Assembly: GCA_027023425.1 (NCBI GenBank)
Contig: JALVVL010000022.1
Coordinates: 48,210-112,209 of the forward strand
DNA: 64,000 bases
From: Anaerolineales bacterium
Lineage (GTDB): Bacteria > Chloroflexota > Anaerolineae > Anaerolineales > DRMV01
Reading direction: 5' to 3'
Shown: piece after piece, positions 17,876 through 24,868 of the stretch
Numbering within the stretch: the first letter of the stretch is position 1
Layout: each line of letters begins with the position of its first letter
Notes under the pieces: generated by a model
Database searches by the model: none
What the model saw: only the letters and a program-made list of their open reading frames with translations
Told to the model about the DNA's origin: nothing
Made by a program: the position numbers and the translations under genes

Positions 17876-19324
17876 CTATGGCCTTTCGCCCACAGTGTGC
17901 AAAAGAGCAAAATTTGGCGGGCGCATTGCGCCGACCGGGAAGCCGGAAATCAGTACGACTTTTTGCCCTTCGCTTATCAGCGTGGCCGAGCGCATTGCTG
18001 CTTCCACATGAGCGAGCATGGTTTCAACCGTGTTGGCAAACGGCACCTGCTGGGGGAAAACGCCCCAATACATACTCAGGCGGCGGTAGGTGTGCTCGTC
18101 GGGCGTGAATGCCAAGATGGGCACGCGCGGCCGCGCCTTTGACATCAGCGTTGCAGTTCTGCCGGTTTGGGTGAAAACGGCAATCGCCGAAACATCGCGG
18201 TCGTGGGCGAGTTCGCGCGCCGCCAAGGTCAGCGCGCGGGCGTCATCGCGGTCGCCCTCATCAGCAGGCAGGACAAAATGCGCCCATTCGCTGCCGTGGC
18301 GCTCGGCCTCAGTGATGATCGCGCTCATCATCCGCACCGCTTCCACCGGATAGCGCCCGACGGCAGTCTCGGCAGAAAGCATGAGCGCGTCGCTGCCATC
18401 AAAGACGGCATTTGCCACATCCGAAGCCTCGGCGCGCGTGGGGCGGGGGTTGTTCACCATAGAATCCAGCATTTGAGTTGCGGTGATAACAAGTTTGGCG
18501 CGGCGGTTGGCGGCAGCAATGATGCGCTTTTGCGCGATTGGCACATCCTGCGGCGGCAGTTCAACGCCGAGGTCGCCGCGCGCCACCATCACCCCATCCG
18601 CCGCTTCCAAAATTTCGTCCAGGTTGTCCAGCGCCTCGGGGCGCTCAAGTTTGGCGATGATAGGCGTGTCAATCTTTTCGGGGGCAATTTGGGCAATGGC
18701 TTGGCGCACGCGTGCCACATCATCCGCCGAGCGCACAAACGAAACTGCCACAGCGTCAACATCGTGCTTCAACCCAAAAGCGAGGTCGGCTTCGTCCTTT
18801 TCGGTGAATGCGGGCACGTTCAGCGGCGTGCCGGGGAAATTCAAACCTTTGTGCGAAAGCAACTTGCCGCCGAGCACCACTTTTGCTTCCACAAAATTGC
18901 CGCGCACCGCCGTAACGCGCAATTCGTAGTGCCCGTCGTCCATCAAAATCCGCGTCCCCACCTTCACCACCTCGGGCAACTGGGGAAAGTCAATCGGGAT
19001 GGGCTTTGGAGCATCCTGCGGCGGCGGCAGGTGCTCAGGGTAAAGCGTGACGGTTTCGCCTTCCTTGAGCATAAGCGGCTCTTGGGGCAACTTGCCGACG
19101 CGGATTCGTGGCCCCTGCAAATCCTGCAAAATGGCTGTTGCCTTGCCGAGCCGCTTGCTCAGACGGCGCACGCGCTCAATTGCCTGTGCATGCTGTTCGT
19201 GCGTGCCGTGCGAAAAATTGAGGCGCACCACGTCCACGCCTTCTTGCAAAAGAGCGATGAGCACGCTTTCGTTCATGCTCGCCGGGCCAAGTGTGGCGAT
19301 GATTTTGGAGCGTCTGGTTCGCAT
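17876..19324 (-). CDS. pyk: Pyruvate kinase
   Basis: Converts phosphoenolpyruvate and ADP to pyruvate and ATP, the last step of glycolysis. Motifs are KIIATLGPAS at the N-terminus, VRLNFSHG, the active-site IIAKLERPEALDN...GVMVARGDLGVE, TATQMLDSM, and FDGSDALMLSAETA. Length 482 is usual, with the C-terminal allosteric domain retained and no fused PEP-utiliser domain. Start ATG 19324 has GAGGAAA upstream; the 21 extra residues of the ORF track are not conserved. Confidence 0.97.
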   Translation of the reverse strand: MRTRRSKIIATLGPASMNESVLIALLQEGVDVVRLNFSHGTHEQHAQAIERVRRLSKRLGKATAILQDLQGPRIRVGKLPQEPLMLKEGETVTLYPEHLPPPQDAPKPIPIDFPQLPEVVKVGTRILMDDGHYELRVTAVRGNFVEAKVVLGGKLLSHKGLNFPGTPLNVPAFTEKDEADLAFGLKHDVDAVAVSFVRSADDVARVRQAIAQIAPEKIDTPIIAKLERPEALDNLDEILEAADGVMVARGDLGVELPPQDVPIAQKRIIAAANRRAKLVITATQMLDSMVNNPRPTRAEASDVANAVFDGSDALMLSAETAVGRYPVEAVRMMSAIITEAERHGSEWAHFVLPADEGDRDDARALTLAARELAHDRDVSAIAVFTQTGRTATLMSKARPRVPILAFTPDEHTYRRLSMYWGVFPQQVPFANTVETMLAHVEAAMRSATLISEGQKVVLISGFPVGAMRPPNFALLHTVGERP

Positions 19325-19443
19325 TGTTTCCTCTCGGAAGGGGAGAAACACAGAAAGCACAGGAACTTTGTAACTCACGTTACGCATGGATGGTTAACAG
19401 GCAACAATTTCGTCCTATGAAACTGGTACACATTTGGCTTTTT

Positions 19444-19547
19444 CGCCCTCACCTATCCCCCAGAGCCTTGCTTCGCGGCGGCTCAGCCCCCTTTCCTCTC
19501 CCAGTGGGAGAGGAAAGGGGGCGCGCAGCGGGGGTAAGGTGAGGGCG
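19444..19547. repeat. Nested long inverted repeat (REP-like hairpin)
   Basis: Outer arms CGCCCTCACCT / AGGTGAGGGCG (11 bp, perfect) enclose a perfect inner 16-bp palindrome of CCCCCTTTCCTCTCCC with a 3-nt loop AGT (19487-19521). It lies in the 581-bp gap 19325-19905 between pyk and the CoA-transferase gene. Hairpins of the type CTCCCAnTGGGAG are common dispersed elements in bacterial genomes; only one full copy is seen here. Confidence 0.85.
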
Positions 19548-19609
19548 CTCATATGTGTTGATGCTAAAGTGCGTAACATGAGTTTGTAATTTTACCTACG
19601 CAAAGGTGG

Positions 19610-19693
19610 GTGCTGCCTTTTTGGGGCTCACCCTTCTCCAAAAGTCGCCGTAGGGCGACTTCGCAAGCAGTAGGTGCAGTTTCAACTGCCGCT
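19610..19693 (-). repeat. Dispersed hairpin element, copy 1
   Basis: On the minus strand this reads GGCAGTTGAAACTGC, CCTACTGC, then AAGTCGCCCTACGGCGACTT followed by TTGG and GAGCCCCAA. Homologous copies are at 30384-30470 and 56430-56475. Each holds two small palindromes. In this orientation the second hairpin with T-run could also terminate the CoA-transferase transcript. Confidence 0.8.
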
Positions 19694-19694
19694 G

Positions 19695-19905
19695 GAAACC
19701 ACAGAAGACACAGAAAAGCCACAGAAAACTCAGGAATTTTCTCTTGGCGCCCTTCGTGCCCTTGGCGGCCTTGGCGTTCCTATCCACCAATTGACACAGA
19801 TTTACACCAATTGAAGAAAAAACACAGAAGACACAGAAACCTCACAGAAAACACAGAATTTTGTGTTCTCTGTGCCCATCTGTGGAATCTGTGGTTTTCC
19901 TTTTG
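19695..19905. repeat. Repeat island 2
   Basis: CCACAGAAGACACAGAAA, CTTGGCGCCC, the ACCAATTGACACAGATTTACACCAATTG module and CTGTGTTTTCTGTG-type units, as in island 1. It ends at the stop codon of the CoA-transferase gene. The ORFs here are repeat translations. Confidence 0.85.
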
Positions 19906-21216
19906 TCAGATGTAATTCAGTTCCTTCGCCTGATGGCGGAGTTCGTCGCGGAAATCGGGATGTGCGATGTTGATGAGCGCGTGGGCGCGCTGGCGGATGG
20001 ATTTGCCGTAAAGGTTGGCTACGCCGTATTCCGTTACCACATAGCGGACATGGTTGCGCGTGGTAACAACGCCTGCGCCGCGCTTGAGCATGGCGACAAT
20101 GCGGCTGACGCGCGTGCCGTCGCGTAGGGTGGTCGTGCTCGGCAGGGCAATGATGGGCACCCCGCCTTTAGAACGGGAAGCGCCGTAGATGAAATCCAAC
20201 TGCCCACCTACGCCGCTGTAAAGTTTCGGCCCAATGCTGTCGGCGCACACTTGCCCCGTCAGGTCAACCTCAATCGCGGAATTTATCGCCACCATCCGCT
20301 CGTTTTGGGCAATCACAAACGGGTCGTTGACGTATTCGGTCGGGTGGAGTTCAATCATCGGGTTGTTATCCACCCAGTCATAAAGTTTTTGCGAGCCCAA
20401 GATGAAGCCGGCGATGATTTTGCCGCGGTGCAAAGTCTTGCGCGCGCCGGTCAGCACCCCGCGCTCCACCAAATCCATCACGCCATCCGAGAAAAGTTCG
20501 GTGTGCACGCCGAGGTCTTTCTTGTCGTGCAAATAGCGGAGCACCGCGTCGGGGATTGCGCCGATGCCCATTTGCATTGTCGCCCCGTCGGGGATGAGGT
20601 CGGCGATGTTTGAGGCTATCTTTTCCACCACCTGCGGGTCGCCCTTTGCACCCATGACCATCTCGGCGATTGGATAATTCACGGGCACAATGTAGTCCAA
20701 TCGGCTGACATGGATGAAAGAATCGCCCAAGGTGCGCGGCATTTGCTCATTGATTTCGGCGATGATGATTTTGGAAGACTCGGCCGGGGTTTTGGTAAGC
20801 CCAACCTCCACGCCAAAACTGCAAAAGCCGTGCTCATCAGGCGGCGAAAGGTGAACGAGCGCCACATCCAAAGGCAAAATGCCGTTTTTGAAGAGCAGCG
20901 GAAATTCAGAAAGGAAAACCGGCGTGAAGTCGGCTCGCCCTTCTTGCACAGCCTTGCGGATGTTGGCGCTGATGAACATGGTGTTGACGCGCAGGTGCCC
21001 TTCCATCTCAGGAGAAACATACTCGGCTGGCCCAACGGTGAGCGCTTGATCAATTTCCACATTTTCCAGTTCCGGGGCGCGCTTCACCAGCGCCTTGAGG
21101 AGCACCTGCGGCGTAGAGCAGTTACCCGTCAGGAAGACGCGCTGATTTGATTTGATCACACTTATCGCTTCTTCTGCGCTGACAATGCGCGAGCGGTAAA
21201 TTTTTTGCCAATCCAT
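19906..21216 (-). CDS. Acetyl-CoA hydrolase / butyrate-type CoA-transferase family protein
   Basis: Family I CoA-transferase related to 4-hydroxybutyrate CoA-transferase and acetyl-CoA hydrolase. Two domains are visible, with GIGAIPDAVL, the catalytic-Glu segment VHTELFSDG, and the CoA-site GVGGQLDFIYGA. Length 436 is usual. It lies 2 bp after alanine dehydrogenase on the same strand, which suggests a joint role in amino-acid fermentation (acyl-CoA to acid with CoA recovery or ATP yield through acetyl-CoA). The exact acyl donor and acceptor cannot be told from sequence. Confidence 0.88.
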   Translation of the reverse strand: MDWQKIYRSRIVSAEEAISVIKSNQRVFLTGNCSTPQVLLKALVKRAPELENVEIDQALTVGPAEYVSPEMEGHLRVNTMFISANIRKAVQEGRADFTPVFLSEFPLLFKNGILPLDVALVHLSPPDEHGFCSFGVEVGLTKTPAESSKIIIAEINEQMPRTLGDSFIHVSRLDYIVPVNYPIAEMVMGAKGDPQVVEKIASNIADLIPDGATMQMGIGAIPDAVLRYLHDKKDLGVHTELFSDGVMDLVERGVLTGARKTLHRGKIIAGFILGSQKLYDWVDNNPMIELHPTEYVNDPFVIAQNERMVAINSAIEVDLTGQVCADSIGPKLYSGVGGQLDFIYGASRSKGGVPIIALPSTTTLRDGTRVSRIVAMLKRGAGVVTTRNHVRYVVTEYGVANLYGKSIRQRAHALINIAHPDFRDELRHQAKELNYI

Positions 21217-21218
21217 TG

Positions 21219-22304
21219 CTATTTCTCCTGATAGGGCAAGCGAGCAAGGTTGCGGAGTTCGCCCTTGTAAGTGTTGACGGCGTGGGCTAAAGCCGGTTTT
21301 TCTACCATTGCGCGGGCAATGCCGTGGTCGGCAATGCTGAGGATGTAGGGCATCGCGGCGGTGACGAGGGCATGGGTGGCAGTGCGCGCCACCACGCCGG
21401 GCATGTTGGGCACGGCGTAGTGGATGACGCCTTCCTCAATGTAGGTGGGGTGGTCGTGGGTTGTGGGGCGCGAAGTTTCAACGCATCCGCCTTGGTCTAT
21501 GCTGACGTCAATGATGATGGCGCGTGGCTTCATCGCCCGCACCATTTCGCGCGTTACAACGATGGGAGCGCGCTCGCCCGGGCGAAGCACCGCCCCTACC
21601 ACCACATCGGCATACGCCACCGAGCGGGCAATGTTGTACTTGGTCGCCGGCAATGTGGCAACCGTGGGGTAATCGCGGAAGATTTTTTCAAGCGCACTCT
21701 GGCTGATGTCCAGCACGGTGACGTGCGCCCCAAGCCCAACGAAGCCGCGGACGGCGCACGAGCCAACTACCCCCGCGCCGATTATCACCACTTCCGCCGG
21801 AGGGACGCCGGGCAAACCGCCCAAGATAATCCCTTTGCCGCCGTGGTTGTTTTGCAAAAGCCGCGCCGCGACCTGCACGCTCATTAGCCCGCCTATGCGG
21901 CTCATCGGCTTCAGCACCGGCCGTTCCCCGTCATCTTCTTCAATTTGCTCCAGCGCAACCGAGGTGATGTCGTTTTCAAGCATGTAGGCTACTTTGTCCT
22001 GCTTAGCCGAGGCCAAATGGAGCAAGCCCACCAACACCGACCCCGGGCGCATCCAGTGCAATTCTTCAAGCATAGGACGGGCGACTTTCACCAGCAGGTC
22101 TGCCCGCCCAAAGGCTTCGTGCGGGGAATAGACGATGCGCGCACCGGCGTTTTCGTAATCCTCATCGCTGAATCCGGCGCCCAGACCGGCTTCGTGCTCC
22201 ACGTAAACCGTGTGGCCGTGGCTGGTAAGCACATGCACGCCGTGAGGCGACATGCCCACCCGATATTCAAACGGGCGCCGCTCTTTGGGAATGCAGATAT
22301 TCAT
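21219..22304 (-). CDS. ald: Alanine dehydrogenase
   Basis: NAD-dependent oxidative deamination of L-alanine to pyruvate. It has the N-terminal KERRPFEYRVGMSP segment, the Rossmann motif VVIIGAGVVGSCAVRGFVGLGA, and the active-site stretch IDVSIDQGGCVETSRPTTH; 361 residues. Start ATG 22304 has AAGGAGAG upstream; the ORF track adds ten residues. It forms an operon with the CoA-transferase that follows. Confidence 0.93.
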   Translation of the reverse strand: MNICIPKERRPFEYRVGMSPHGVHVLTSHGHTVYVEHEAGLGAGFSDEDYENAGARIVYSPHEAFGRADLLVKVARPMLEELHWMRPGSVLVGLLHLASAKQDKVAYMLENDITSVALEQIEEDDGERPVLKPMSRIGGLMSVQVAARLLQNNHGGKGIILGGLPGVPPAEVVIIGAGVVGSCAVRGFVGLGAHVTVLDISQSALEKIFRDYPTVATLPATKYNIARSVAYADVVVGAVLRPGERAPIVVTREMVRAMKPRAIIIDVSIDQGGCVETSRPTTHDHPTYIEEGVIHYAVPNMPGVVARTATHALVTAAMPYILSIADHGIARAMVEKPALAHAVNTYKGELRNLARLPYQEK

Positions 22305-22331
22305 GGCAACTCTCCTTTCATGCTGAGCAAA

Positions 22332-22371
22332 CAAGCCTCCCTGCGCGCCGTGTTGAGGCGTGGGAGGCTTG
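22332..22371 (-). terminator. Terminator between argF and ald
   Basis: Perfect 10-bp stem CAAGCCTCCC / GGGAGGCTTG with a 20-nt loop that itself contains GCGCGC. On the minus strand it is followed by TTTGCTC, a short T-run. It is placed between argF and ald, so it may limit read-through. Confidence 0.5.
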
Positions 22372-22402
22372 CTGTATTGGAAATTAGCGCGGGGCGTTCC
22401 GC

Positions 22403-23329
22403 CTAAATGCCGCCCATGAGCCGCGCGAGGATGGCTTTTTGGGCATGCAGGCGGTTGTGCGCCTGCTGGAACACAACAGAATGCGGCCCATCTATCACCT
22501 CATCGGTAATTTCCTCACCGCGGTGGGCGGGGAGGCAGTGCATCACAATCACCTCTGGCTTCGCTTCCGCCACCAGCGCCGCGTTGACCTGATAGGGCGG
22601 GAAAACGCGCTTGCGCTTTTCGGCTTCGGCTTCTTCGCCCATGCTGACCCAGGTGTCAGTGTAAATCACGTCGGCGCCTTTCACTGCCTCGTGCGGGTCG
22701 TGGGTGAATTGGAGGCTCGCGCCGCTCTCGGCGGCAAATTCGCGCGCCTGCTCAATTGCCTGCTCGGGAATTTCATAACCTTCCGGGCCTGCCCAAGCAA
22801 AGTTCGCACCGAGTTTGGTGCTGATGTGCATCAGCGAAACCGCCACATTGTTGCCATCGCCGATGAAGGCAACTTTCAAGCCTTTCACTTTGCCAAAATG
22901 TTCGTAGATTGTGAGCGCGTCGGCCAAAGCCTGAGCGGGGTGGTTGTAATCGCTCAGACCGTTGATGACCGGCACATCAGCCCAGCGGGCGAGTTCAAGG
23001 ATGTGTTCGTGGGCAAACACCCGCGCCATGATGCCCTGCACGTAGCCGCTGAGCACGCGCGCAATATCGGAAATTGCCTCGCGTTTGCCCAAGCCGATTT
23101 CCTGCGGGCCAAGGTAAAAAGCGTGCCCGCCGAGGTGCTCCATTGCCATTTCAAAAGAAACCCGCGTGCGCAAACTGGGCTTCTGGAACACCATCGCCAG
23201 CGCCTTGCCTTTGAGAATGGGCTTATTGCCACCCGCGAACCATTCTTTTTTTAGTTCAACGGCAAGGTCAAGAAGCCCTTGAATTTCTTCGGGGGAATAA
23301 TCGGCAATTGCAATGAAGTCGCGTTTCAT
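22403..23329 (-). CDS. argF: Ornithine carbamoyltransferase
   Basis: Makes citrulline from ornithine and carbamoyl phosphate. Signature motifs are SLRTRVSFE (carbamoyl-phosphate site), HPAQALAD and [10 protein letters not shown] (ornithine site); 308 residues. Start ATG 23329 has GGAGG 7 bases upstream. No other arginine genes are adjacent. The upstream region carries a CACAGGTTTTCCTGTG palindrome and a MITE 75 bp before the start. Confidence 0.95.
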
Positions 23330-23357
23330 GTTGAATCCTCCGTTCAAAAGAATCTTA

Positions 23358-23373
23358 CACAGGTTTTCCTGTG
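23358..23373. promoter_or_regulatory. Perfect palindrome upstream of argF
   Basis: CACAGGTTTTCCTGTG, a 6-bp stem with a 4-nt loop, 28 nt upstream of the argF start codon. It could be an operator or a leader hairpin. It does not look like an ArgR box. Confidence 0.3.
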
Positions 23374-23404
23374 GATTGCTCAAAGCATGGTTCCAAAAAC
23401 AAGT

Positions 23405-23703: not shown

Positions 23704-23796
23704 ATGCCAGACGCATATGCTCTACGGCGTCGCCAGTTGGTGGGAAGAGCATTGTCCTGCCACCATTGCGGCGCACAAATCCCAAAACTGAGGTAA
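23704..23796 (+). CDS. Possible 30-residue leader ORF with a CxxC motif
   Basis: ATG-to-TAA frame too short for the ORF track. It contains CHHCGAQIP, a zinc-ribbon-like half motif, and stops 4 bases before the ATG of the next gene, so it could couple its translation. Against it: no Shine-Dalgarno, and the likely promoter would start transcription after this ATG. It may be chance. Confidence 0.2.
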   Translation: MPDAYALRRRQLVGRALSCHHCGAQIPKLR

Positions 23797-23800
23797 AAGA

Positions 23801-24814
23801 ATGAGCGAATTCAAAGACCTTTTACAATCCAAAGTTTTTACCGAAAATGCCGAACAGGAAATTCTCAAACCTTTCTCTTTTCAGGAAGGGTACAAAAACG
23901 AACTGATTTTCTTCTTCAAGCCGGAAACTTTTTTGCTCCCTGCGCAGGTTTCGGAGCGCGTGATAGAAATGATTGAGAGCAAATTGGAGGAATACGGGGC
24001 AAACGTCTCCGGCATTGTGGCGGTGCGCGGCCCTGTTTTGGAGCGCCACGGCATTATGGACCGCCATTACGGCTTCATAAACACACTTTCCAAAAACGCT
24101 TCCAAGATGGTTAGTTTAGAAGAACTGGAACCGGTAGCCGAGGCCATAGGGCTTGATCTTCAGGCCGAAAAGCCGCAAATCCTCGGCGGGCATGAATTTT
24201 TGGAGCAATTTCCGGAGTTCAACGCCGAAAGTTTGAACGATTTGTGGTTCCAAGAACGCTCGGCGCGGGTGCGAAGCGGCTTTTACGTCCGGCGTGTGAA
24301 TGTGAACGGCAAAGATGTTGTGCTCGTGAACGGCTTTCACCCCCTGCAGTTGGAACATTACACCAACCCCGAGCACAAAACAGTTGTGGCTCTTTTGCAC
24401 TCCAACACACCGTGGAAGGTTTTGCGGGAGGAAATGATAGGCGATACTTACCCCGATAAGGCTTCGCCAAACTCGGTGCGCGGCACCCTCTACGCCGATG
24501 ACGAGGTCAACAAGTGGGTGGAAGTTTCTATCGCTAACAACTTTGTGCATCTCTCTGCGGGGCCTTTTGAGGCTTTGAAGGAGATGGAAAACTTCCTCAA
24601 GCCGCTGATCGGGGAATTTTCGCTGGCCAAAACCAATGTTGGGCGCGCCATCATTGCATCCGGCCTTGATGAAAGCGCGATTTCGTATGCCCTCACTAAC
24701 CCCACTGTGAAAACTGCCGAGGGCGAAACCGACCTCTTCTCGGCAACCGAATTGGCCGACACTGACGAAGCAGTGGCTCTGTTTGTGGAAAATGTGAAGG
24801 CAAGCAAAGCCTGA
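23801..24814 (+). CDS. Nucleoside-diphosphate-kinase-like protein with a large insertion
   Basis: A protein of 337 residues. Its pieces follow the order of NDP kinase: ELIFFFKPET (32-43, cf. LxxIKPDA), DRHYGF (87-92, cf. EEHYAEH), VVALLHSNTPWKVLREEMIGDT (195-216, cf. VVAMVLEG...LMG.T), SPNSVRGTL (222-230, cf. APGTIRGD), and NNFVHLSAGP (246-255, cf. NxxHGSDS), which keeps the phospho-acceptor His (His250). About 90 extra residues sit between the HY motif and VVAL, and a C-terminal extension of about 65 follows. Ordinary NDPK is about 140 residues. Catalysis is not assured. GAGGTAAAAG precedes the ATG. Confidence 0.65.
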   Translation: MSEFKDLLQSKVFTENAEQEILKPFSFQEGYKNELIFFFKPETFLLPAQVSERVIEMIESKLEEYGANVSGIVAVRGPVLERHGIMDRHYGFINTLSKNASKMVSLEELEPVAEAIGLDLQAEKPQILGGHEFLEQFPEFNAESLNDLWFQERSARVRSGFYVRRVNVNGKDVVLVNGFHPLQLEHYTNPEHKTVVALLHSNTPWKVLREEMIGDTYPDKASPNSVRGTLYADDEVNKWVEVSIANNFVHLSAGPFEALKEMENFLKPLIGEFSLAKTNVGRAIIASGLDESAISYALTNPTVKTAEGETDLFSATELADTDEAVALFVENVKASKA

Positions 24815-24831
24815 GATGAGGCATTTTGAAC

Positions 24832-24864
24832 AAAAAAGCGCGGCTTTGGGAGCCGCGCTTTTTT
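24832..24864. terminator. Bidirectional intrinsic terminator
   Basis: Perfect 14-bp stem AAAAAAGCGCGGCT / AGCCGCGCTTTTTT with a 5-nt loop. It separates the NDPK-like gene (+) from the convergent glycosyltransferase gene (-) and has T-runs on both strands. Confidence 0.92.
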
Positions 24865-24868
24865 GTTT

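Follow-up and report, generated by a model that had tools for sequence, protein, structure and literature searches.

The 64,000-nucleotide stretch of Anaerolineales DNA analysed here (the window) encodes a 337-residue protein which, judging from its sequence and its modelled structure, is probably a nucleoside diphosphate kinase (NDPK) that has diverged deeply but is catalytically competent, serves as the Ndk of this organism and has replaced the canonical Ndk several times. Seen in at least 22 genomes in place of the canonical one, the long form is probably a second version of this housekeeping enzyme that has so far been overlooked. What is new is a family of long NDPKs, its distribution and its exclusion with ndk; the protein itself is a divergent NDPK variant and constitutes no new category.

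The gene and its relation to canonical Ndk

The gene and its flanking signals are the following:

23790..23794, + strand, GAGGT box resembling a Shine-Dalgarno (ribosome-binding) site, upstream of the ATG
23801..24814, + strand, long NDP-kinase gene (337 aa) with an ATG start, recognized from its homologues and its NDPK fold
24828..24868, + strand, hairpin followed by a T-run just past the stop codon, a probable terminator

The GAGGT box was seen directly in the sequence; the hairpin, with a folding energy of -28.9 kcal/mol, was not listed by a simple pattern scan. The ORF is intact and is conserved at full length among its homologues, which are 23-42% identical across most of their length and measure about 330-345 aa. 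The gene stands alone between two oppositely oriented neighbours, argF and a large membrane-protein-like ORF, and its GC content (0.51) is slightly lower than that of most neighbours. It lies at the edge of a conserved argF block, at a place where relatives have other genes. This block (17879-23383 of the window), comprising argF and alanine-dehydrogenase-like, CoA-transferase-like and pyruvate-kinase-like genes, is conserved in several of the f1 genomes examined. In one relative (G005:C33; L080:4231-11399) some 5 kb separate a canonical ndk from argF, the immediate neighbour of the long form in the window. The neighbours differ between genomes, being argF in the window and DUF488-like and SIS-domain-like genes in Anaerolineaceae, and synteny gives no hint of function.

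Only residues 210-267 of the protein match the Pfam NDK profile (PF00334), scoring 19.4 bits where the cut-off is 27, and the NCBIfam model NF001908 scores 18.1 bits against a cut-off of 155. Routine annotation would therefore leave the protein unnamed or weakly named. Among 14 members of the long family, 8 gave any PF00334 match at E<=1. A profile-profile comparison between the 14 long proteins and 26 canonical NDKs, the kind of check that the sequence-only reading of this gene had proposed, connected the two groups across the C-terminal half with 97% probability (E 4e-11). The N-terminal half alone matched weakly, in the right register (probability 4.6%, E 0.009); it has diverged too far to match significantly, and its equivalence is therefore based on the order of the motifs, the predicted secondary structure and the fold match. 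The family profile, from which canonical NDKs were left out, also matched NDK-like frames in 27 other genomes. In the PDB it matched the NDKs of Pyrobaculum aerophilum (1xqi, 2e-5) and Borrelia burgdorferi (4di6, 5e-4), the best sequence matches to the long form; matches to TCP-1 and to a choline-binding protein in a sequence search of the PDB (E about 0.4) were rejected as chance. In the two NDKs, as in the long form, the stretch from the IRG arginine to the NxxH motif is lengthened, and the alignment is ungapped; on the other hand, their chains of 195 and 190 aa are too short for an insertion of ~85 aa in a hairpin plus a C-terminal extension of ~60 aa.

The AlphaFold2 model of the window protein, for which an alignment of 11 family members was the input, reached a pLDDT of 88.6 and a pTM of 0.85, with no segment below 50. 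All 50 Foldseek matches listed against the PDB were NDPKs (target-normalised TM up to 0.79), and the top match among those listed was again 1xqi. With a second AlphaFold model, that of a homologue from Aminicenantes, all 50 matches listed were once more NDPKs. By these models the long protein has the ferredoxin-like fold of NDPKs, and the earlier proposal, for which any other predicted fold had been named as the refutation, held in both cases.

Active site and additional segments

The residues and segments that could be placed with respect to the canonical enzyme are:

23918..23920, + strand, K40 (counterpart of K12) in NELIFFFKPE, at the end of the first strand; invariant in 14 homologues, placed with the model
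24065..24070, + strand, H89-Y90, with Y90 as counterpart of Y52; Y90 invariant and H89 nearly so, in a modelled helix (85-103)
24110..24334, + strand, insertion (residues ~104-178) at the tip of the alphaA-alpha2 hairpin; no match to the canonical NDK profile
24335..24343, + strand, F179-H180-P181, counterpart of F60-F61-P62, at the start of a helix (180-188); invariant in 14 homologues
24383..24394, + strand, VVAL strand (residues 195-198; canonical VMAM/VVMV), placed by profile alignment and within a modelled strand (193-201)
24446..24484, + strand, T216-x-P218...S225-V226-R227-G228, Kpn-loop region (T94, P96, R105), invariant or nearly so and aligned to the canonical enzyme
24539..24583, + strand, N247-x-V-H250-L-S252...E261 (N115, H118, S120, E129), placed by conservation and by alignment to the canonical NxxHxS and E
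24614..24811, + strand, C-terminal extension (residues 272-337, ~60 aa), in which N300, F313 and E317 are invariant

Conservation was read from the alignment of 14 long homologues, in which K40, Y90, R227, N247, H250 and S252 are invariant and T216 and E261 nearly invariant. As these catalytic residues are kept across the alignment, the motif match is not due to chance. When membership of the NDK superfamily was tested, the phospho-acceptor His was found in an N-x-x-H context with an E at +11. Counterparts of the phosphate-binding residues K12, Y52, T94 and R105 are present as well, K40 and Y90 being placed by motif order and by the model, with a weak profile match in the N-terminal half; around K40 the model has a strand (33-39) and then a helix (48-64), and the profile match is in the expected register. 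The assignment of F179-H180-P181 to the F60 region follows from the next segment, QL..Y, which aligns to the canonical 'sLveyit', with an uncertainty of one residue in the register, so that the counterpart of F60 is either F179 or H180. The roles of K12, Y52, R105, N115 and H118 are those described for NME1 (PMC10482350). Human NME1/NME2 (NM23) are hexameric proteins of ~152 aa without the additions, about 10-14% identical to the long form in structural alignments; even so, K12, Y52, F60, R105, N115, H118 and E129 all have counterparts in it. For T216 and E261 we take the roles to be those of T94 and E129 in NME1.

The claim that all core motifs occur in order was borne out for KPE, HY, VVAL, SVRG and NFVH. 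It had to be amended in two respects: the canonical H-G-S-D reads H-L-S-A (G119 replaced by L and D121 by A), and the likely counterpart of R88, the K/R found at position 209 in nearly all members, is shifted, aligning to R88 solely when a one-residue insertion is allowed. With these reservations, the long form resembles canonical Ndk (PF00334, NF001908) in its predicted fold, in the order of the catalytic motifs, in its phospho-acceptor His with E and N partners, and in being usually encoded by one gene per genome.

The main difference from canonical Ndk is one of size. The protein was correctly described as more than twice the normal length (337 aa as compared with about 135-150 aa), and the extra sequence was placed between the HY motif and the VVAL strand. 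In that interval the long form has ~105 residues against ~20 in the canonical enzyme, that is, ~85 extra; yet there is more sequence elsewhere, namely ~30 aa at the N-terminus, ~10 residues after R227 in the Kpn loop, and the C-terminal extension. The insertion ends before F179-H180-P181, the canonical F60-F61-P62 at alpha-2, and is therefore located at the tip of the alphaA-alpha2 hairpin, between Y52 and F60. It contains the conserved sequences GGHEF, RSGFY and LVNG and is modelled as a small alpha/beta module (pLDDT ~74-96). The C-terminal extension is predicted to form helices and a beta hairpin (pLDDT 82-97), and did not match canonical NDK.

Other enlarged NDKs were observed. Genome G816 carries, besides a normal ndk, three weak NDK matches in frames of 295-331 aa that lie near one another on a single contig (G816:C55:3123-7771), another enlarged NDK-like group without the hairpin insertion. 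The NDKs of family f2 (L054, L055 and L056) are enlarged differently and more mildly than the long form: ~12 aa are added ahead of the VVAL strand, the Kpn loop is longer, and the C-terminus is extended.

The low similarity to canonical NDK, together with the existence of some non-catalytic NDPK-domain proteins in eukaryotes, could suggest a regulatory or structural protein in which the NDPK core is a relic. We consider this very unlikely, as K40, Y90, R227, N247, H250 and, nearly always, E261 are kept at 21-27% identity, a pattern that catalysis explains best. In line with a catalytically competent NDPK, close pairs of the long form show a dN/dS of 0.14-0.18, indicative of purifying selection.

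Distribution and exclusion with canonical ndk

A profile scan of genome contigs retrieved 10 loci for the long form; a scan with the single sequence gave no match. The long form occurs in Brevefilum and other Anaerolineaceae and in two further Chloroflexota families (genomes G207 and G133), with a patchy distribution. Outside this phylum it was found in an Aminicenantes genome (G482), in a second genome of the same phylum as G482 (G783), where two contigs each hold part of the gene, and on a conjugative plasmid of Parageobacillus caldoxylosilyticus (NZ_CP040554.1), annotated as hypothetical. No homologue of the long form was found in phages and viral contigs, and the window protein had no match in PHROGs; a role in anti-phage defence was discarded, as it had no PADLOC match. 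Our search of the open-access literature gave no description of an NDPK of this type. In the family tree the sequences from the window, Aminicenantes, the plasmid and G133 sit on long branches, and for this reason we claim no transfer route.

The search for a canonical ndk elsewhere in the genome, also proposed by the sequence-only reading, found none: the genome of the window (G000) gave no PF00334 match. The same exclusion was seen in family f13, where among 147 genomes 17 had the long form, 107 had canonical Ndk, 23 had neither and none had both. In a sample of the phylum (400 genomes, 284 of them high-quality), canonical Ndk scored over the cut-off in 276 of the 284, and none of these 276 had the long form; it was present in six of the eight high-quality genomes lacking canonical ndk (G000, G042, G066, G098, G133 and G207). 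In G133 the PF00334 match is the long protein itself, under the cut-off, and the genome was counted as lacking canonical ndk. Nor was canonical Ndk found in G482, in G783 or in the other Anaerolineaceae recovered by the profile. The long form and the absence of ndk thus coincide in at least 22 genomes (17 of f13 plus G000, G133, G207, G482 and G783). These counts refer to the chromosome sets examined; for Parageobacillus the analysis covered the plasmid. Fisher p values for the exclusion were 4e-11 and 1e-11, a statistic that ignores shared ancestry; its recurrence in f1, in two genera of f13, in f41, in f42 and in a second phylum is a stronger argument. Family f42, to which G133 belongs, also holds very divergent but recognisable NDKs (L059-L066, 58-81 bits). 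Genomes with neither form, such as G159 and G347, indicate that cells can do without Ndk; NTPs can also be made by pyruvate kinase or adenylate kinase.

Most of these genomes are drafts, and the absence of ndk from any single one could reflect an assembly gap. The genome of the window is itself a draft (93.9% completeness), which, along with the GC content of the gene and the different genes that neighbouring genera carry at the locus, could point to a binning error, a chimeric ORF or a canonical ndk lost in gaps. Such an artefact seems extremely improbable to us, given that the same form and the same absence recur in the 22 or more genomes, including assemblies of 2 contigs (G810) and 8 contigs (G809), that the neighbouring argF shares 74-83% identity with orthologues from other f1 genera, and that the full-length ORF is conserved.

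The exclusion also bears on whether the protein is a lineage-specific NDPK or a repurposed enzyme, the two possibilities first considered. A phosphotransferase with the NDPK fold might have kept the phosphohistidine chemistry while its insertion came to recognise another substrate, for instance a larger or modified nucleotide, a CoA-like compound or a biosynthetic intermediate. The large conserved insert at the base-binding hairpin and the change from HGSD to HLSA would agree with this, as would the plasmid homologue, which lies beside genes for SurE, NUDIX, a DegT/DnrJ aminotransferase and a P-loop kinase-like protein. However, were the enzyme specialised, it would be expected to occur frequently alongside ndk, whereas the genomes checked have the long protein solely where ndk is lacking, and no common gene neighbourhood exists. 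We therefore favour an NDPK and regard repurposing as unlikely, while 'lineage-specific' proved too narrow for a protein found in several Chloroflexota families, in the phylum of Aminicenantes and on a Parageobacillus plasmid. The plasmid cluster (L015:676-9241) encodes a methionine adenosyltransferase, a split DegT/DnrJ aminotransferase, an SDR, the P-loop kinase-like protein, the long NDK, SurE, an APH-like phosphotransferase and NUDIX, and is biosynthesis-like; from its sequence context, this homologue may be a specialised exception with another function.

Proposed function and significance

Purifying selection, an intact catalytic set and presence solely in genomes lacking ndk are most simply explained if the long protein is the Ndk of these genomes; it is from these that we infer its enzymatic activity and the replacement of ndk function. 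The enzyme would work by ping-pong transfer, with H250 taking the gamma-phosphate from an NTP and handing it to an NDP. K40, Y90, T216, R227, N247 and the K/R at 209 would handle the phosphates, E261 would orient H250, and F179/H180 would stack on the base. The two jaws of the base-binding cleft, the alphaA-alpha2 hairpin and the Kpn loop, are predicted to be lengthened by the ~85-residue insertion and by the ~10 added residues, respectively. In combination with the C-terminal extension, these additions probably alter the shape of the nucleotide cleft and of the oligomer interface. We infer this role of the insert from its position in the model, and probable horizontal transfer of the long form from its patchy distribution; canonical ndk was probably replaced more than once. 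A bolder proposal, possible though on balance doubtful, is that an undescribed second class of housekeeping NDPK repeatedly displaced Ndk, its extra module acting as a jaw of the cleft that confers a new property such as selectivity, allosteric control or a different oligomer.

Ndk, which keeps nucleotide pools in balance, is among the most widespread and conserved enzymes, and a genome with 'no ndk' is usually read as a case of loss in which other kinases cover its function. Our results suggest that some of these genomes instead carry a homologue missed by standard annotation, and that the long form may be a natural instance of a housekeeping enzyme being replaced repeatedly. It would also offer a testable example of a base-non-specific active site tolerating an addition of 85 residues, and the family profile is ready to be used for mending the annotation and the metabolic models of Anaerolineaceae/Brevefilum and their relatives.
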